Virus record (IMG/VR): IMGVR_UViG_3300044712_000383
Coordinates: 1-49,155 of that record
From: a virus
Strand: one strand, 5' to 3'
Length of the DNA: 49,155 nucleotides
Part shown: one piece after another, positions 713 to 44,437 of the stretch
How the letters are laid out: each line of letters begins with the position of its first letter
How positions within the stretch are numbered: position 1 is the first letter of the stretch
Notes under the pieces: generated by a model
Database searches by the model: none
Seen by the model: the letters and a program-made list of their open reading frames with translations, nothing else
Told to the model about the DNA's origin: nothing
Position numbers and translations under genes: made by a program

Positions 713-1266
713 CCCTCCCATCCCTCCGCACTCCCGCCCCCTGCAATCTCCCGGTGGAGTTGCTCCCGGATCTCCTGCTGGCGATCTCCTTCATGGACGG
801 TCGCGGGGCATACCACCGGCAAGCGGCTGACCTCGCCCGGCACGCCCCCTATCACGTTCTGCAGAACGGGATGCACGTCTGCGCCTTCGGGAAGGATATC
901 GAGGGCGCTACGCGGGCGCTGGCCATCCTGGACTACATCGGACAGACGCGGGGATGTCATTGCTACACCGGAAGCCCGATGCTGTGGGGCACGGGCAGGG
1001 TGGCCGGAGTGCTGCGCTGCTACGCTTCCGCGCTGAATTGCGATCAGCGGGATGCCTGGTGCTATGTGATCGAGGGTGGGGCGCTTGAGTTCCTGGCGGG
1101 GTGGCCCATCCGAGAGCTGCCGTGCCGCCGACTGGCCGGGTACTATTACGGGCATCAGGCGAAATGGAAAGATGTTCAGTCGGAACTACAGGCCGCGGCC
1201 ATTGATGCCGGGGTGGAATGGTGTCCGTTCTGGCGGGACAGGTTGCACGGGCTGGTGAAGGTATGA
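709..1266 (+). CDS. Conserved hypothetical protein linked to integrase
   Basis: A 185-residue cytosolic protein, rich in Cys, Trp and Tyr in its middle (for example GCHCYTG and CYASALNCDQRDAWCYV). I do not recognise a fold or catalytic motif. It is joined by 4-base stop/start overlaps to the lipoprotein before it and the integrase after it, an arrangement repeated in prophage A. The N-terminal 55 residues differ moderately between the two copies, while the segment encoded from about 880 onward is almost identical at the DNA level. Conserved coupling to the integrase suggests a job in integration or excision, but this is inference only. Confidence 0.7.
   Translation: MTLPSLRTPAPCNLPVELLPDLLLAISFMDGRGAYHRQAADLARHAPYHVLQNGMHVCAFGKDIEGATRALAILDYIGQTRGCHCYTGSPMLWGTGRVAGVLRCYASALNCDQRDAWCYVIEGGALEFLAGWPIRELPCRRLAGYYYGHQAKWKDVQSELQAAAIDAGVEWCPFWRDRLHGLVKV
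882..1260. repeat. Near-identical segment shared with prophage A, copy 1
   Basis: Bases from about 882 to 1075 match 42774-42967 essentially without change, and the rest to 1260 is roughly 94% identical by eye. Flanking sequence (first third of the gene and the whole integrase gene) is clearly more divergent. The pattern looks like recent recombination or gene conversion between tandem prophages. Confidence 0.75.
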
Positions 1267-2315
1267 GCATCAGGAGACACCCAACAAAAGGCGCTGGCTG
1301 GTGGCAGATTGACATAGGATACGGCAAGGACCGGAAGCGCCGATCCTTCCAGGGCACCAGAGAGGAGGCCCAGGAGATGCAGCAGGAGGCGAGGAAACAC
1401 CTGCGCCCTTCCTCCGCACTCTCCACGAATCCCCGGCTCCACGAGATTACCGCCGACTACCTCGCGGCATACAAAAATGATCACCTCCCCGCCGGCCACG
1501 ACCGCTGCTCGCGGAGCTTGGAGCACGTCCAGCGGATCCTCGGCAAGTACTGCCTGACCTCCATCACGCACCACCTGGTAGATACTTACAAGGAGAAGCG
1601 TCTGGAGGAGGGAGTCCGACCCGTCACCATCAACAAAGAGCTGTGCGCCCTGTCCACTCTGCTGAAGTGGGCAGTAGAGATGAACCTCATTGACGAGGCG
1701 CTGAAAATCAAGAAGTTCCCCAAGAAGATGACCACCGCCCCGTTGCCGGTCGTGCCGTCAGTAGGCGATGTAATCAAGATTCTGAACGAGGCGCACCCCC
1801 GGCGCAGATTGCCCCTTCAGCTGATGGCGTTCTGCGGGCTGAGAATGAGCGAGGCGCTGCGGCTCACGAAAGAGGACGTTTTGATATCCCGGCAAGCGGT
1901 AATCGTGAGAGGCAAGGGGAATAAGCAGCGGATTGTCCCGGTGCCGGTAGCGGAAGTATGGGAAGCGGTCATTGCTCGCACTGAGGCGGTCAAGGAGGGG
2001 TTTTTGTTTGTGAGTGCGGTAACGGGCAGGCCATACCACGATCTACGCGGCACGCTCAAAGAGGCGGCGAAGCGTGCAGGATTTGACGCGAGGATATACC
2101 ACCATCTGCTTCGGCACTGGTTCGGGACGGTCGGGCATGAACTGGGAATTTCGCTGCGGTCGCTGCAAGGGCTCATGGGGCACTCAACGAGCCAGGTGAC
2201 GGAGATTTACACGCATCTGAGCGGGCAACATCTGTCAAATGAGATGGATAGGTGGAAAAAATTGACAGGTGATGTCAATGAAAAGAACCGTAAAGCCAAG
2301 CCTAAAGCGGATTGA
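1263..2315 (+). CDS. int: Tyrosine recombinase integrase (prophage B)
   Basis: A 350-residue phage integrase. Visible catalytic set: Arg194 (GLRMSEAL), the beta-hairpin lysine in RGKGNKQR (about 218), His281 and Arg284 (HLLRH), His307 (MGHST) and the nucleophile Tyr316. Residues 1-55 form a small arm-binding-type N-terminal domain, and about 55-150 the SAM-like core-binding domain. The start at 1263 overlaps the preceding stop (ATGA); a longer open frame from 1218 would overlap the upstream gene by 48 bases and is less likely. The gene reads directly towards its att core. It is clearly related to, but distinct from, the integrase of prophage A. Confidence 0.92.
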   Translation: MSIRRHPTKGAGWWQIDIGYGKDRKRRSFQGTREEAQEMQQEARKHLRPSSALSTNPRLHEITADYLAAYKNDHLPAGHDRCSRSLEHVQRILGKYCLTSITHHLVDTYKEKRLEEGVRPVTINKELCALSTLLKWAVEMNLIDEALKIKKFPKKMTTAPLPVVPSVGDVIKILNEAHPRRRLPLQLMAFCGLRMSEALRLTKEDVLISRQAVIVRGKGNKQRIVPVPVAEVWEAVIARTEAVKEGFLFVSAVTGRPYHDLRGTLKEAAKRAGFDARIYHHLLRHWFGTVGHELGISLRSLQGLMGHSTSQVTEIYTHLSGQHLSNEMDRWKKLTGDVNEKNRKAKPKAD

Positions 2316-2328
2316 CAGCACAGATTCG

Positions 2329-2341
2329 GGACTCAAAATCC
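2329..2341 (+). other. Attachment core at the B/A junction
   Basis: The 13 bases ggactcaaaatcc recur exactly at 44221-44233, also just after an integrase gene. Here the match to a tRNA-Leu(CAA) anticodon arm extends to 15 bases (gggactcaaaatccc, 2328-2342). The flanks are not tRNA halves, so this is an attP-like junction and not a host-flanking attL or attR. The exact crossover point cannot be seen. Confidence 0.7.
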
Positions 2342-2391
2342 CAAGGAGTGAGCGGAAAGCTATAATGATAACGATATGTTAGGGCAGGGTG

Positions 2392-2421
2392 GTGACATGC
2401 CGTTGACATATCAATTGACAT
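2392..2421 (+). promoter_or_regulatory. Integrase arm-type sites, attP P-prime side
   Basis: Three direct repeats gtgacat, ttgacat and ttgacat start at 2392, 2403 and 2415, that is, 11 and 12 bases apart. The same three, with the same spacing, lie at 44284, 44295 and 44307. On the other side of the core, related TTGACA or inverted copies occur at 2232-2238, 2262-2268, 2272-2278 and 2312-2318. Helical spacing around a core is typical of integrase or excisionase arm sites. Confidence 0.6.
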
Positions 2422-2444
2422 ATGGAGGTGAAATCGTTTAATAT
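2415..2444 (+). promoter_or_regulatory. Possible promoter of phage tRNA-Leu
   Basis: The third arm-type repeat supplies TTGACA (2415-2420), and TAATAT (2439-2444) follows after 18 bases. Transcription would start about seven bases before the tRNA. If real, integrase binding could affect tRNA expression. The matching arrangement is not evident at the second tRNA. Confidence 0.4.
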
Positions 2445-2457
2445 TAGGTAAATCTCA

Positions 2458-2542
2458 GCCGGTGTGGTGAAATTGGTAGACGCACAGGATTCAAAATCCT
2501 GCGGGGCGACCCGTGTCCGTTCGACCCGGACCACCGGCACCA
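2458..2542 (+). tRNA. tRNA-Leu (CAA), phage-borne, prophage A
   Basis: This is a complete class II tRNA of 85 bases including the encoded CCA. The acceptor stem GCCGGTG/CACCGGC pairs perfectly; the anticodon arm CAGGA-TTCAAAA-TCCTG gives anticodon CAA (codon UUG). A long variable arm follows, and the T arm is GTCCG-TTCGACC-CGGAC. It lies inside the phage boundaries, beside the attP-like site. Its anticodon arm differs by one base from the att core. Confidence 0.93.
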
Positions 2543-8424: not shown

Positions 8425-11400
8425 GCCGCCGCCTTCTGGATCAGCACGCTTTCAATCGTTTCAAGACTCCCGCCGGACTGACTAAGAAGAGCGATCATCT
8501 GCTTGAAACCCTCCATCAGCGCCTGAGTCTGTGCCACATTCTCCTTGAGCTGTTCCGCTCGATCCTTCTTCTGCTCCTCGTCGGATTTCGTCATCTTGTC
8601 GATGATCTGCTGCTGAAGGTCTGCCTGGCGCTGGGCGTAGTTCACCTGGGAGGTGGCCTTGCCTTCAGCGGATTGCAGCATCCCCATGACGGTATCGTAT
8701 TCGACCGCATAGCCGGGGGAGGAGGCGTAATACTGCTGCGCAAGTTGCAGATAGGAGTTCACCGCAGTCGACAGCCCCTGTAGCGATTCCTGGTCGCCCC
8801 TCATCCCGTTGCCGTACATGCCCCACAACTGCGTTTTCGATTCACGGAGCCGGTCTTCCAGGGAGCCGGAAGAAAGGTTTCCGGTCATAAGCGCCAGCCG
8901 GGATTTCTTCAGGCTGTCGGCAATGGTTTCGTATGTCTGAGCCGACTTCTGCCATTCGGCAAGGGTTGTTCTCGCCCCTTCCACCAGCACATTGTTCAGG
9001 CTGTTCAGGGCGGCGCTGTAGCTGTCCGTTGCGGTCAGGTACTTGTCGTTGATGCTCTTCACCAGTTCGTCGTAGGTGATCTTTTCAAGGAGCGTCACAT
9101 CGAGGCCCTGCTCCCGCGCCGCCTTGATGTCGTTCTCTGCCGAGATGACCGCATCGAGCAGATCGGCCATTGAGTTGTTGCCGCCGAGGCGTAGCGCCCG
9201 GACCGCCAGGCTGTCATTCAGTTGTTCCTGAGCGATTGCCAGTTCTGCCGCCTTTGCCGCCAGGTCTTCCATCTGCGTCTGTACGGTGTCGAAGGCCGGG
9301 GCGATATCCATCAGTGCCGCGAACAGCGCCCTCCCGTTTTCGGTGGTGAGGTCCAGGCCATTGACCAGGCCGACGAACTCCTGCCGGGTAGTGGGGATTG
9401 ACCAACCTAAGCTGTTGATGGAGGCGTTCATCTCGTTGAAGGCTACGGACACTTGACGTTGCGCCTGCTCCGCCTTCATTGCCGCCTGTTCATCCTCGGT
9501 GAACATGGTTTCAAAATAGCCGGTGATTTTATCGGTGAAGTCCTCGCTGCCGCCCATCAACTCTTGGAGTTGGTACGCTGCATTTGCGCCGGCCAGAGTG
9601 GATGTAATGAGATCCGCGCCGATGAGTTCCAGGCTTTCGTTGACACTCTGGAGCGCAGTTGATAGACGCACAATGGCATCAAATGCGCTCTCGCCGTAGT
9701 AGGTGAATTCCTTCAGGCCGTCGGTGGTCTGTGCGAGCTGGTCGGCAACTTTCGTCAGCCATTCTTCAAATTGCTTCTGGATCTTCGTTGCCTGATTGGT
9801 GTCCGTCCTGATTTTGCCGGTCGGGATAGATACTGAATCCATATCCGCAGTCGTGCCCGTGACCACGGCGGCGCGGATGATTGTGCTTTGAATCTGCTGA
9901 ATGTACCCCTCGATGGTGCTTTGCAGTCCTTGCCCTACGCCCCCTCCGCCCCCCTGCGTCGTTTGCCGCGTTATGTCGAGGCCGGACGTACCGCCAGTGA
10001 TACGCAAGCCCGTAGACCCGGAACGTGACGACATGAGAGAGCTGCCGAGTAGTTTAGACTGATCGGATTCAAAGAGCCCTGCAATCGAGGTCATGCCGTC
10101 GGCTACCTTGCCGAGTGCCAGGGACGCGGAATTTGCAGAATTTGCAAGTTGCTGCATGGCTTCAGCGGTCGCTTGATCTTGTATCGACAGCGTAGGCCCA
10201 CCGATGGAACCGCCCACAGAGCCGCCCATCCCTGCCGAGCCGCCGGAGAATCCGGGGACAACTGTTTCCACCGAGCCGCCGCCGCCGAATGACGTAGACG
10301 CGATCTTGGCGATCTGGATGACGCCGGTAGCTGCTGCCGATGCCGCCGCGACAATGGCGAGCGGGTAGGGCTGCACCGTTGCCAGGGCATTCATTACTGC
10401 CGCCGCCGTGCTCATCACCGCCGCCGCGATGTTGAAGGCTTTGGCGGATTCAAAACCCTTGCGGCTGCTCTGATCCTGAGTGTCTGCCAGGGCCACGAAC
10501 AGCCCCGCCGCTATGCCTGTGTAGTTGGACACCAGGGACAACTTTGAATTGGTTTCGTCTTCAGATATCTGTTTTGTTTTCTGAGCCCGTGCCGCGTCGA
10601 GTTTGTCTTGTTTCGCAATCAACTCTTTGTAAATGTCTGTCCGTTCTTTTCCGGCGTCCTTCAGGATCTTCAGGTTCTCTTCAATCTTCTTCTGCTCGTC
10701 ATCGTAAAACTTGATCATCGTTGCGCGTTGCTGTTCATACGGATCTTCTATCAGGCTGATGTCAAGTTCCTGATTCGCGGCTTGGACCTCCGCGAGTTTG
10801 AAGAAGGCGTTCGTGTAGGCATCAATAGCCGCCGCCCCATCTTCCCCGAAGGCGCGGTTGATGTCATAGATGCCGTCCGCGAATTCCCTTTCTTTCTTCA
10901 CCGCCGGATCCAGCGCCGTCACCATTTCACGCACAGATCGATTCCAGTCCTCGATCTCCTGCTGCGCTTGCACGAGGTTCGCGGCTTCCTGTTCCGCGTC
11001 TGCGATGCCCTTGAATTCCTTGCTGGTGGCGTCAACCTGACGCTGCACCTCGATAGCCTTCAAGTGCTCCTCGCGAAGTCTCTGCAAGATCACGATATCC
11101 GCGCCTTTCTTGTGCATCAGGTCGGTGTACTTGTTGTCGATGTCGGAGATCTTCTTGGCGTATTCGTCGAGGCCGGGGACGAGGGCATCAACCTCTTTGC
11201 GTAGGTCGGCGTAGGTCTTGCGCCATTGTTCGGCGCTGTCCACCCCTCCACCGCCCTTCCCTGCTGGCGTGACGCCCTTGTTCTGAGACTGCCGGAGGAT
11301 TTCAGCCGGGGTGTAGCCGGTGGACGCTGGCCTGTTGTACCTGTTTTCGATTTCCAGGAACTGCTGATAGCCTGCGGTTTCAGCGTTCGACGCCGCTTGC

Positions 11401-32754: not shown

Positions 32755-32960
32755 TATTTATCACCTCCAAACAATCCCGGCTGCTCCGCTTCCTCTTTCA
32801 GCCGCTTCTGTAACGCCTCTTGCTTCTTCGTCATCCCCGACGCGCCATGTTCGAGGCATGGCCCTAGTCGCCTATCGTCTACCCTGTGCATAGTACGGCG
32901 GTTGCAGGTCGGGCAGTATGCTAGGACTTGAGTTGTGCTGCGGGTGTAGTGTTGGGTCAT
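32754..32960 (-). CDS. 68-residue zinc-finger-like protein
   Basis: N-terminal half has CPTCNRRTMHRVDDRRLGPCLEH, a CxxC...CxxH metal site; the C-terminal half is a charged helix (KKQEALQKRLKEEAEQ) ending PGLFGGDK. It starts inside the first 71-bp repeat. The PGLFGGD end resembles a clamp-binding or SSB-type tail, but that is weak. Confidence 0.6.
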   Translation of the reverse strand: MTQHYTRSTTQVLAYCPTCNRRTMHRVDDRRLGPCLEHGASGMTKKQEALQKRLKEEAEQPGLFGGDK

Positions 32961-33027
32961 CCCATCTCCTTTATCGCACTCATACCACGGGTTAGAGCGG
33001 GCGGGCCGATCAACCTGAAGGCGTTAT
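32957..33027 (-). repeat. 71-bp intergenic element, copy 1
   Basis: Matches 33746-33816 at 68 of 71 positions. It contains a bulged palindrome (gggttagagcgg ... ccgatcaacc) and, on the minus strand, ends with ribosome site AAGGAGATGGG and the start codon of the next gene. In an operon of touching genes these elements make the only longer spacers. Confidence 0.85.
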
Positions 33028-33749
33028 AAACTCATCACTTCGCAGAGAATTCCGCAATCGCCCACGATAGGCGGTTCGTGACGGCCTCTTTCCGGTTCTA
33101 GTTCGTCCAGGAAAACCCCGTTAATACAGGTTGCCCCCGCGATTCGCTCCATTGCTGCCCGTTGCGCGAATACTTCGGGGAAGTCCTGCCGTATTTTGTT
33201 CCAATATCCCATACCGCCTTTTACACAGCCGACACAGTTGTTGTTGTGGTATCCAAGTTCGTACATGCCGGGGCGACGTATGCCGGACGCTTTCAAAATT
33301 TCGTGCGCCTGTTCTTTCGATAGCCGCCGCTCGATCAACGGAAATACGTGTTCATGGTTCGACTGGTTTTCCACAATCCTCTCCGCCCTGTGTCGCTCGT
33401 TGTAATCCAGCCCCCACACGTACCGAAACGGCCCCGCATTCTCGTATTCCCACTGTTGCCGCACCTGGCGCTTTAGGTAACGAGTGCAACTTGCCCCGCG
33501 CGGCCCGTTGACGTACACGCCAGAGGGATATGCTGCCGTTGCCATGATTGCACCCTCAACGCTCTTGTATGGACTCTGTAATATCGTCACCGGCTTCCCA
33601 AACCATACCTCACAGTCACGAACAAACCGCATTGTGTCCGGGTGCTGGTCGTCAATGTGTGTGTAAATTATCTCGTCTATCTGGTCTATCATCAGTTTTG
33701 TTGCCACTGCCGACGATACTCCAGCGGAGAACCATGATACTGTTTTCAT
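33024..33749 (-). CDS. PAPS-reductase-like / adenine nucleotide alpha-hydrolase protein
   Basis: A 241-residue phage protein of the PAPS reductase/ATP pyrophosphatase type. The PP-loop is WFSAGVSSAVA (about residues 6-16), and a C-terminal cysteine motif NNCVGCVKGGMGYWNKI is typical for phage versions. These enzymes adenylate or reduce sulphur compounds or activate nucleic acid carbonyls; here the substrate is unknown. DNA sulphuration (DndC-like) or nucleotide modification is possible. It is flanked on both sides by copies of the 71-bp element. Confidence 0.78.
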   Translation of the reverse strand: MKTVSWFSAGVSSAVATKLMIDQIDEIIYTHIDDQHPDTMRFVRDCEVWFGKPVTILQSPYKSVEGAIMATAAYPSGVYVNGPRGASCTRYLKRQVRQQWEYENAGPFRYVWGLDYNERHRAERIVENQSNHEHVFPLIERRLSKEQAHEILKASGIRRPGMYELGYHNNNCVGCVKGGMGYWNKIRQDFPEVFAQRAAMERIAGATCINGVFLDELEPERGRHEPPIVGDCGILCEVMSL

Positions 33750-33816
33750 CCCATCTCCTTTATCGCACTCATACCACGGGTTAGAGCGGGCGGGCCGCTC
33801 AACCTGGGGGCGTTAT
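33746..33816 (-). repeat. 71-bp intergenic element, copy 2
   Basis: This copy has the perfect version of the stem: ggtt-a-gagcgg, loop gcggg, ccgctcaacc, that is, 10 pairs with one bulged A. The minus strand carries the ribosome site and start of the PAPS-reductase-like gene. A degenerate third copy is at 34021-34070. Confidence 0.85.
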
Positions 33817-42125: not shown

Positions 42126-42614
42126 ATGAAAATATTTTTACTGGTTTTTGCGTTGATGATTTCTGCAGGGTGTGCGCCTCACGTAACACGTACCGGTACA
42201 CTCTGCGTTCCCCCGATATCCATTGAAGAGTTTAGCACCTCAGACCCTGTTGAAATAAGAAAAGACGTGGTGGCTCAGATTGAGCCAGGCCTTCGCAAGG
42301 GCATTATCGACTGGATCTGCCAGGACACCGACCTGAAGGTTGATAAAAAATGTGGAGTAACCGACTACATCTTGAATCTAAAACTTGAACGTGTAGACAC
42401 CATGACGAGCGGCAGGGTAGCCCGAACCATACTCGGGACATATACCGCGTCAAACCGGCTCTACAAGCTCACCGTGTCTGGCACTCTGGACAAACCCGGT
42501 GGCGAACATGTGGCCCCTATTCGCGGGGAATCAGACATGAAGCCTCTGGACGAAACCATCAAAGATATCGCGGAAGAAGTCACCGACGGCGTTCAACATG
42601 TCGAATCCCCTTAG
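42126..42614 (+). CDS. Small lipoprotein (prophage A)
   Basis: A 162-residue protein with a lipoprotein signal (MKIFLLVFALMISAGC; lipidated Cys16). The mature part (IEPGLRKGIIDWICQDTDLKV... YILNLKLERVDTMTSGRVARTILG... DETIKDIAEEVTDGV) resembles small outer-membrane lipoproteins of DUF4410 type, as in GNA1162-like families. It lies in the same operon place as the unrelated lipoprotein at 269-712, but overlaps the next gene by 17 bases. TAAGGAG precedes ATG. Confidence 0.75.
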   Translation: MKIFLLVFALMISAGCAPHVTRTGTLCVPPISIEEFSTSDPVEIRKDVVAQIEPGLRKGIIDWICQDTDLKVDKKCGVTDYILNLKLERVDTMTSGRVARTILGTYTASNRLYKLTVSGTLDKPGGEHVAPIRGESDMKPLDETIKDIAEEVTDGVQHVESP

Positions 42615-43158
42615 TCTCAACACCCCCGCCCCGACCAACATCCCGGTGGAGCTGCACCCCGACATGCTGCTGGCGATCAGCTTCATGGACGGGCGCGGAG
42701 CATATGCCAAGCAGGCGGCGGAACTCGCCCGGCACGCCCCCAGGTACGCCTTCAGGGATAACATGCATGTCTGTGCCTTCGGGAAGGATATCGAGGGCGC
42801 TACGCGGGCGCTGGCCATCCTGGACTACATCGGACAGACGCGGGGATGTCATTGCTACACCGGAAGCCCGATGCTGTGGGGCACGGGCAGGGTGGCCGGA
42901 GTGCTGCGCTGCTACGCTTCCGCGCTGAATTGCGATCAGCGGGATGCCTGGTGCTATGTGATCGAGGGCGGGGCGCTTGAGTTCCTGGCGGGGTGGCCCA
43001 TCCGAGAGCTGCCGTGCCGGCGGCTGGTCGGGTACTATTACGGGCATCAGGCGAAATGGAAAGATGTACAGTCGGAACTACAGGCGGCGGCCGTTGATGC
43101 CGGAGTGGAATGGTGCCCGTTCTGGCGGGACAGGATTCGCGGGCTGGTGAAGGCATGA
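42598..43158 (+). CDS. Conserved hypothetical protein linked to integrase (prophage A)
   Basis: A 186-residue homologue of 709-1266. Identical through most of the segment after residue 58; the N-terminal third differs (for example YAKQAAELARHAPRYAFRDN here). The conserved part contains GSPMLWGTGRVAGVLRCYASALNC. The stop overlaps the integrase start (ATGA). Unknown function; conserved linkage to the integrase suggests an accessory role. Confidence 0.7.
   Translation: MSNPLSLNTPAPTNIPVELHPDMLLAISFMDGRGAYAKQAAELARHAPRYAFRDNMHVCAFGKDIEGATRALAILDYIGQTRGCHCYTGSPMLWGTGRVAGVLRCYASALNCDQRDAWCYVIEGGALEFLAGWPIRELPCRRLVGYYYGHQAKWKDVQSELQAAAVDAGVEWCPFWRDRIRGLVKA
42774..43152. repeat. Near-identical segment shared with prophage B, copy 2
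   Basis: Partner of 882-1260. The first 190 bases show no change by eye. The match ends close to the integrase start. Confidence 0.75.
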
Positions 43159-44216
43159 GTATCAGGAAACACCCCACAAAAGGGGACGGCTGGTGGCAGC
43201 TTGATGTTGGGCACGGCGAAAACCGCCAGCGACCGGCATTCGAGGGCACGAGAGAAGAGGCGCAAGAAGTCCACGATGAGCTGAAAAAACTGATTCGGCC
43301 GCCTTCCGCGCATTCGACAAACCCGCGGCTGCACGAAATCGTACCCGACTTTCTTGCCGCCTACAAACATGATCACCTGCAGAAAGGATATGAGCGCACA
43401 ATTTACAGTATCGAGCACATTCAGCGGCATCTGGGTAAGTACTGTCTCATGTCGATTTCTCACGCTCTGGTTGATCGGTATAAAGAGGCCAGGATAGAGG
43501 AGGGAGTGACTCCATCCACAATTAACAAAGAGCTATGCGCCCTGTCCATGCTCCTGAAATGGGCGGTAGAACAAGGGAGGATCGACGAAGCGTTGCGAGT
43601 GAAGAAGTTCCCCTCGAAAATGACAAAAGCTCCCGTGCCGGTCGTGCCGTCCGTGGCGGATGTGGTCAAGATACTCGCGCAAGCCCACCCGCGCCGAAGG
43701 CTGCCCTTACAGCTTATGGCTTTCTGCGGCCTGAGAATGTCCGAGGCGTTGAGGCTCACGAAAGAAGATGTACTGAAGTCCCGGCAGGCTATCATCGTGC
43801 GGGGGAAGGGCAACAAACAGCGGGTCGTCCCGGTGCCGGCGCAAGAAATATGGGAAGAAGTGCTCAAGCGCACAGAATCCGTTTCTGACGGCTTTTTGTT
43901 TCTGAACAAGGCAACGGGAAGGCCGTACCATGATCTACGCGGCACGCTCAAGGAGGCGGCGCGAAGGGCGGGATTTGACGCTCGGATATATCATCATTTA
44001 CTGCGGCACTGGTTCGGGGCGGTCAGCACCGAGCTCGGCATCCCTACGAGGGCAACTCAAATCATCATGGGACACGAGAGCATCAAAACCACGGAAATCT
44101 ATTCCCACGTGACAGCCTCTCACCTGGCAGCGGAAATGGGGAAATGGAAATCCGTGACAAATGATGTCAACAAAAATACCCGCAAAACAAAGCGGGGCAA
44201 AGGTCCGCGACACTAG
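43155..44216 (+). CDS. int: Tyrosine recombinase integrase (prophage A)
   Basis: A 353-residue integrase with Arg194, the RGKGNKQR lysine, His281, Arg284, His307 (MGHES) and Tyr316 in the same positions as the prophage B enzyme. The start overlaps the previous stop. C-terminal 30 residues are basic (NKNTRKTKRGKG). It reads towards the att core five bases after its stop. The last part of the gene holds arm-like sites (gtgacag 44109-44115, gtgacaa 44154-44160, atgtcaa 44164-44170). Confidence 0.92.
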   Translation: MSIRKHPTKGDGWWQLDVGHGENRQRPAFEGTREEAQEVHDELKKLIRPPSAHSTNPRLHEIVPDFLAAYKHDHLQKGYERTIYSIEHIQRHLGKYCLMSISHALVDRYKEARIEEGVTPSTINKELCALSMLLKWAVEQGRIDEALRVKKFPSKMTKAPVPVVPSVADVVKILAQAHPRRRLPLQLMAFCGLRMSEALRLTKEDVLKSRQAIIVRGKGNKQRVVPVPAQEIWEEVLKRTESVSDGFLFLNKATGRPYHDLRGTLKEAARRAGFDARIYHHLLRHWFGAVSTELGIPTRATQIIMGHESIKTTEIYSHVTASHLAAEMGKWKSVTNDVNKNTRKTKRGKGPRH

Positions 44217-44220
44217 CCAC

Positions 44221-44233
44221 GGACTCAAAATCC
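44221..44233 (+). other. Attachment core at the A/C junction
   Basis: Exact copy of the 13 bases at 2329-2341. The two copies delimit prophage A. Flanks here differ from those of the first copy, and neither side is a tRNA half. Confidence 0.7.
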
Positions 44234-44283: not shown

Positions 44284-44313
44284 GTGACATGCTGTTGACA
44301 TACCCATTGACAT
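44284..44313 (+). promoter_or_regulatory. Integrase arm-type sites, attP P-prime side
   Basis: gtgacat, ttgacat and ttgacat at 44284, 44295 and 44307 repeat the 11- and 12-base spacing of 2392-2421. An inverted ctgtcac lies at 44238-44244. Distance from the core is also conserved (51 bases in both). Confidence 0.6.
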
Positions 44314-44317
44314 ATTC

Positions 44318-44405
44318 GCCGGGATGGTGAAATCAGGTAGACACAGGAGACTCAAAATCTCCCGCCTGTAAGGGCGTGCCGGTTCGATTCCGGCTCCCGG
44401 TACCA
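44318..44405 (+). tRNA. tRNA-Leu (CAA), phage-borne, prophage C
   Basis: An 88-base class II tRNA with encoded CCA. Acceptor GCCGGGA/TCCCGGT with one terminal G-U pair; anticodon arm GGAGA-CTCAAAA-TCTCC (anticodon CAA); long variable arm; T arm GCCGG-TTCGATT-CCGGC. It starts four bases after the last arm-type site. Its sequence differs widely from the tRNA of prophage A although the anticodon is the same. Confidence 0.92.
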
Positions 44406-44410
44406 TAACA

Positions 44411-44437
44411 AAAAGGCCCTTCACATCGAAGGGCCTT
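44411..44437 (-). terminator. Intrinsic terminator, mainly leftward
   Basis: Stem aaggcccttc/gaagggcctt (44413-44422 and 44428-44437) with a 5-base loop. Reading leftward it is followed by TTTTTGTT, so it ends the prophage C late operon; rightward the T run is poor. Confidence 0.75.

Follow-up and report, generated by a model that had tools for sequence, protein, structure and literature searches.

The published mechanism of tRNA-dependent lysogeny combines a short attachment core, integration that does not reconstruct the host tRNA gene, and a cognate tRNA carried by the phage (PMC10865867). It is proven in actinobacteriophages, and its discoverers raised the question of its occurrence elsewhere (PMC10865867). 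Genetic proof that lysogeny needs the phage tRNA comes from the tRNA-Lys-TTT phages, and a Fionnbharth phage deleted for its tRNA is impaired in lysogeny but still grows lytically as before (PMC10865867). The Cluster X mycobacteriophages Gaia and Nebkiss use attB-11, which is tRNA-Leu-CAA, with an 8-bp core, and Gaia carries a tRNA-Leu-CAA of its own (PMC10865867). The Gaia genome (KJ567043) was read and contains the integrase gene, a TTCAAAA core candidate and then a same-strand tRNA-Leu(CAA) about 120 bp on. The Gaia tRNA has CTCAAAA where attP has TTCAAAA.

The window analyzed here, the whole 49,155-base stretch of a virus record in which no host DNA was recognized, takes in the right end of prophage A, prophage B in full and the left end of prophage C. 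Because a complete prophage lies between two copies of the att core, the window is a tandem array A-B-C. The prophage and the two intact integrase genes are located as follows.

2329 to 44221 (about), no strand assigned: prophage B, complete and siphovirus-like, between two cores
1218 to 2315, plus strand: tyrosine integrase at the right end of prophage A (Pfam PF00589, E = 6e-24; PHROG integrase, E = 5e-49)
43110 to 44216, plus strand: tyrosine integrase at the right end of prophage B (Pfam PF00589, E = 5e-25)

The genes of prophage B encode an endolysin, tape measure, minor tail, major head, head morphogenesis and portal proteins, a terminase, a RecE-like exonuclease, a CII-like regulator, an HTH regulator and the integrase. 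Prophage B also has a PAPS-reductase-like gene (33024-33749), as does contig L002 (508-1803), the third phage described below. The copy in B is flanked by a 71-bp direct repeat (96%; 32957-33027 and 33746-33816), which suggests a cassette or a duplication. A small protein gene (phrog_16260) overlaps the integrase start at 709-1266 and 42598-43158. It is 98% identical between A and B over 300 bp, compared to only about 72% for the integrase genes, a pattern that suggests a predicted partner that is conserved or recently exchanged.

A single terminally redundant phage genome was ruled out as the source of the window, since the two integrases are 71% identical to each other and the tRNAs of phages B and C are 75% identical. 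With this much divergence, the tRNA pair did not arise by duplication during assembly. It is possible that the array A-B-C is a chimeric assembly joined at the 98%-identical 300-bp stretch preceding the integrases, but the integrase, core and tRNA of each module lie past this stretch, and the module is repeated on the independent contig L002. The L002 phage has a 78%-identical integrase followed by a core (11067-11079) and a complete tRNA-Leu(CAA) (11167-11252). L002 was the sole match in integrase scans of viral contigs, and DNA-pattern scans of viral contigs for more modules again returned it alone.

At both junctions of the window, the core follows the stop codon of the tyrosine integrase gene and precedes a complete tRNA-Leu(CAA). 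The cores are flanked by arm-type sites with the motif TTGACAT.

2329 to 2341, plus strand: att core GGACTCAAAATCC (13 bp) at junction A/B, identical to the tRNA-Leu(CAA) anticodon arm of Desulfobacterota chromosomes
44221 to 44233, plus strand: att core GGACTCAAAATCC at junction B/C
2272 to 2278, minus strand: left arm-type site (TTGACAT) at junction A/B, -57 from the core
2403 to 2421, plus strand: two right arm-type sites (TTGACAT) at junction A/B, +74 and +86 from the core start
44164 to 44170, minus strand: left arm-type site at junction B/C, -57 from the core
44295 to 44313, plus strand: two right arm-type sites at junction B/C, +74 and +86 from the core start

The 12-mer GACTCAAAATCC occurs four times in the window with at most one mismatch (the two cores and the two tRNA anticodon arms), compared to 0.37 expected, and this count was reached in 0 of 100 shuffles. 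The heptamer TTGACAT occurs 13 times compared to 5.6 expected. In all three cases (the two junctions and L002), inverted copies of the heptamer flank the core at the same offsets relative to its start, exactly -57, +74 and +86, the inverted layout of a lambda-type attP, so that a tyrosine integrase gene is accompanied by arm-type sites flanking attP. The tRNA start is at a variable distance from the core start (+129 at A/B, +97 at B/C and +100 in L002). The fixed offsets of the arms and the variable start of the tRNA place the predicted crossover at the 13-bp core and not at the anticodon loop of the phage tRNA, which lies outside this site. The reverse arrangement, with crossover in the phage tRNA anticodon loop, the core at 2329 as an accessory copy and the junction tRNAs as chimeras restored by recombination, could draw on the tRNA anticodon arms, which carry the core with one or two mismatches. 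We regard it as extremely unlikely: the arms flank the 2329 and 44221 cores, the tRNAs lie beyond the arms at varying distance, and the cores are identical in the three phages whereas the tRNA arms are not.

ARAGORN analysis of the whole window returned exactly two tRNAs, both tRNA-Leu(caa). Both are canonical. In the lysogen, each tRNA would stand at the left end of its prophage (B or C), and each integrase at the right end of its own (A or B).

2458 to 2542, plus strand: complete tRNA-Leu(CAA) of phage B (ARAGORN; Rfam, 48.9 bits; cloverleaf-type fold with a long variable arm; CCA encoded)
44318 to 44405, plus strand: complete tRNA-Leu(CAA) of phage C (ARAGORN; Rfam, 52.1 bits; fold with a long variable arm; CCA encoded)
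2415 to 2444, plus strand: promoter-like site TTGACA-18-TAATAT before the tRNA of B, overlapping an arm site (consensus scan only)
2551 to 2574, no strand assigned: terminator-like hairpin with a T-run directly after the tRNA of B
44413 to 44437, no strand assigned: terminator-like hairpin directly after the tRNA of C

ARAGORN, Rfam and the predicted fold thus bear out the initial annotation, which had described a complete and divergent phage tRNA of the same anticodon near the core. Its spacing of 117 bases fits the first junction, with 116 bases between core end and tRNA, but not the second, with 84. A hairpin directly 3' of the tRNA is present in B, C and L002 (3 of 3), and the consensus scan returned no promoter of their own before the tRNAs of C and L002. 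The anticodon arms of the phage tRNAs match the core with one or two mismatches, reading GGATTCAAAATCC in B and AGACTCAAAATCT in C and L002. The absence of a 3' restoring fragment, also claimed initially, was confirmed in all three phages (the two junctions and L002): nothing resembling a tRNA 3' half, with T-arm or acceptor-like sequence, occurs between core and tRNA. With the host side deduced from relatives, neither junction would rebuild a functional tRNA. In its place each phage has a complete tRNA of its own, cognate to the target isotype as read from the core.

A role for the phage tRNA outside integration was also considered. UUG is used at 10.5 per 1000 codons in B compared to 11.9 in the chromosomal sample. 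Codon supply is an unlikely role, because UUG use is not raised and B has no other tRNA. More broadly, the tRNA could be a translation aid or a decoy against tRNA-cutting host nucleases during infection, with an incidental match to the att core. A title cited in PMC11476347 reports that altered anticodon loops allow phage tRNAs to escape tRNA-cutting defenses, and the tRNA of B has T32 where the inspected chromosomal genes have C32. This explanation is nevertheless improbable given that the tRNA is the sole one in B, always lies just outside the attP arms and has the anticodon of the att target in 3 of 3 phages.

The core was then sought in chromosomes. Among the 148 Desulfobacterota genomes sampled, 124 contain the 13-mer, mostly as a single copy, and a control search with the reversed pattern was nearly empty. 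Twenty-six of the 30 loci inspected are intact chromosomal tRNA-Leu(CAA) genes with the core as the anticodon arm on the sense strand, which upholds the initial identification of the core within the likely host phylum; one further locus is a tRNA 3' half at a contig end. In G084 (L125) and G012 (L127), a second core copy begins a tRNA-Leu 3' half apart from the intact gene. The L125 and L127 elements, judged by their sequence, use the same tRNA-Leu(CAA) anticodon-loop attB with a classical 3' restoring fragment. The core copies in L125 are at 2388 and 10313 (about 7.9 kb apart in G084), and that in L127 is at 1501.

A scan of genome contigs with the integrase yielded two distant relatives. In one, a Desulfobulbales MAG (L003, 8080-8210), a 43%-identical integrase is followed by a tRNA-Leu(UAA) 3' half that starts in the anticodon loop. 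The core in Desulfobacterota tRNA-Leu(CAA), the L125 and L127 elements and this relative together identify tRNA-Leu anticodon loops as the predicted target of the integrase family. Two other hits of the Desulfobacterota integrase search (L010 and L011) have no tRNA at their ends, and a terminase search identified no host. Desulfobacterota is the probable host phylum, and we infer this from the core because a search of about 400 Desulfobacterota genomes yielded no integrase closely related to these. The contig holds no host DNA, so attL, attR and attB were not seen, and the attB of this lysogen is assigned to tRNA-Leu(CAA) from relatives. An attB at a non-tRNA site, or in a different tRNA containing the core, would be compatible with a viral record of this kind. 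We consider it very improbable, since the 13-mer in the sampled phylum is almost always the anticodon arm of tRNA-Leu(CAA), it serves other elements as attB and the anticodon loop of a tRNA-Leu is also the target of a related integrase.

These related phages almost certainly break the host tRNA-Leu(CAA) gene by inserting into it and bring a complete spare copy next to the attachment site, and we are highly confident that tRNA-dependent lysogeny is the best explanation. Integration would split the host gene in its anticodon loop, and neither junction would rebuild it. The phage tRNA-Leu(CAA), then about 100 bp inside the left end and in the orientation of the broken host gene, would be expressed, would be needed and would keep the lysogen supplied with tRNA-Leu(CAA). 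The att sites left after integration would then receive further phages of the group, all bringing a tRNA of their own, to give the array A-B-C. The initial proposal that the phage breaks and replaces the host tRNA-Leu(CAA) is therefore consistent with the core identity, the lack of a fragment and the complete tRNA, with the site of the break in this lysogen taken from relatives.

Gaia shares with these phages a tyrosine integrase, a core in the tRNA-Leu(CAA) anticodon loop, the lack of reconstruction and a complete same-strand tRNA-Leu(CAA) of its own. The core is 8 bp in Gaia and 13 bp here, and the tRNA follows the core at about 120 bp in Gaia and 97-129 bp here. Gaia differs in that its integrase is unrelated (22% identity) and it belongs to another phage group, whereas the phages described here have a probable Desulfobacterota host and form a tandem array. 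Fionnbharth and the Cluster L phages (tRNA-Lys-TTT; PMC10865867) follow the same logic with another isotype, but the Fionnbharth tRNA lies away from attP and has its own promoter. A phage-related element of Sinorhizobium meliloti is similar in that integration inactivates a host tRNA-Leu, for which the element substitutes a phage-borne gene of matching isotype but divergent sequence (PMC11476347). That element involves tRNA-Leu(UAG) in another host class and is described from genomes only. Classical tRNA-targeting prophages and islands, such as those of L125 and L127, use the same attB but restore the tRNA with a 3' half, which these phages lack.

Since the phage tRNA and the broken host gene share one strand, expression of the former could come from the host tRNA promoter. 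A transcript begun at the interrupted gene would cover the 5' half of that gene, continue through roughly 100 bp of phage sequence and stop at the hairpin after the tRNA. The altered anticodon arm of the replacement tRNA may in turn prevent attack by the integrase, an effect that is uncertain because the changes in C and L002 fall outside the 7-base loop. That integration places the tRNA behind the host tRNA promoter and that the arm is altered from the core as a shield against the integrase is, taken jointly, a tentative proposal that we would not expect to hold in full. Both the placement and the altered arm recur in the unrelated phage Gaia, which suggests convergence.

The initial annotation had read the arrangement as an addiction device. 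We do not retain that claim, because precise excision is expected to regenerate attB and an intact host tRNA. If excision follows the lambda mechanism and rebuilds the host tRNA, curing by excision should be harmless. A penalty would be expected only for losing the phage tRNA while the phage is integrated. The lysogen may depend on the phage for UUG decoding, although wobble often lets tRNA-Leu(UAA) read this codon as well.

tRNA-dependent lysogeny has precedents in mycobacterial viruses, and what is new here is its occurrence in an unrelated lineage with a probable Desulfobacterota host. With this locus, the layout of integrase, core and tRNA-Leu(CAA) is represented twice, apparently by convergence. 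The locus indicates that several such prophages can line up in tandem, every one bringing a replacement tRNA of its own, and it provides a search rule for more cases, namely a short anticodon-loop core accompanied, immediately beyond the attP arms, by a complete tRNA cognate to it.
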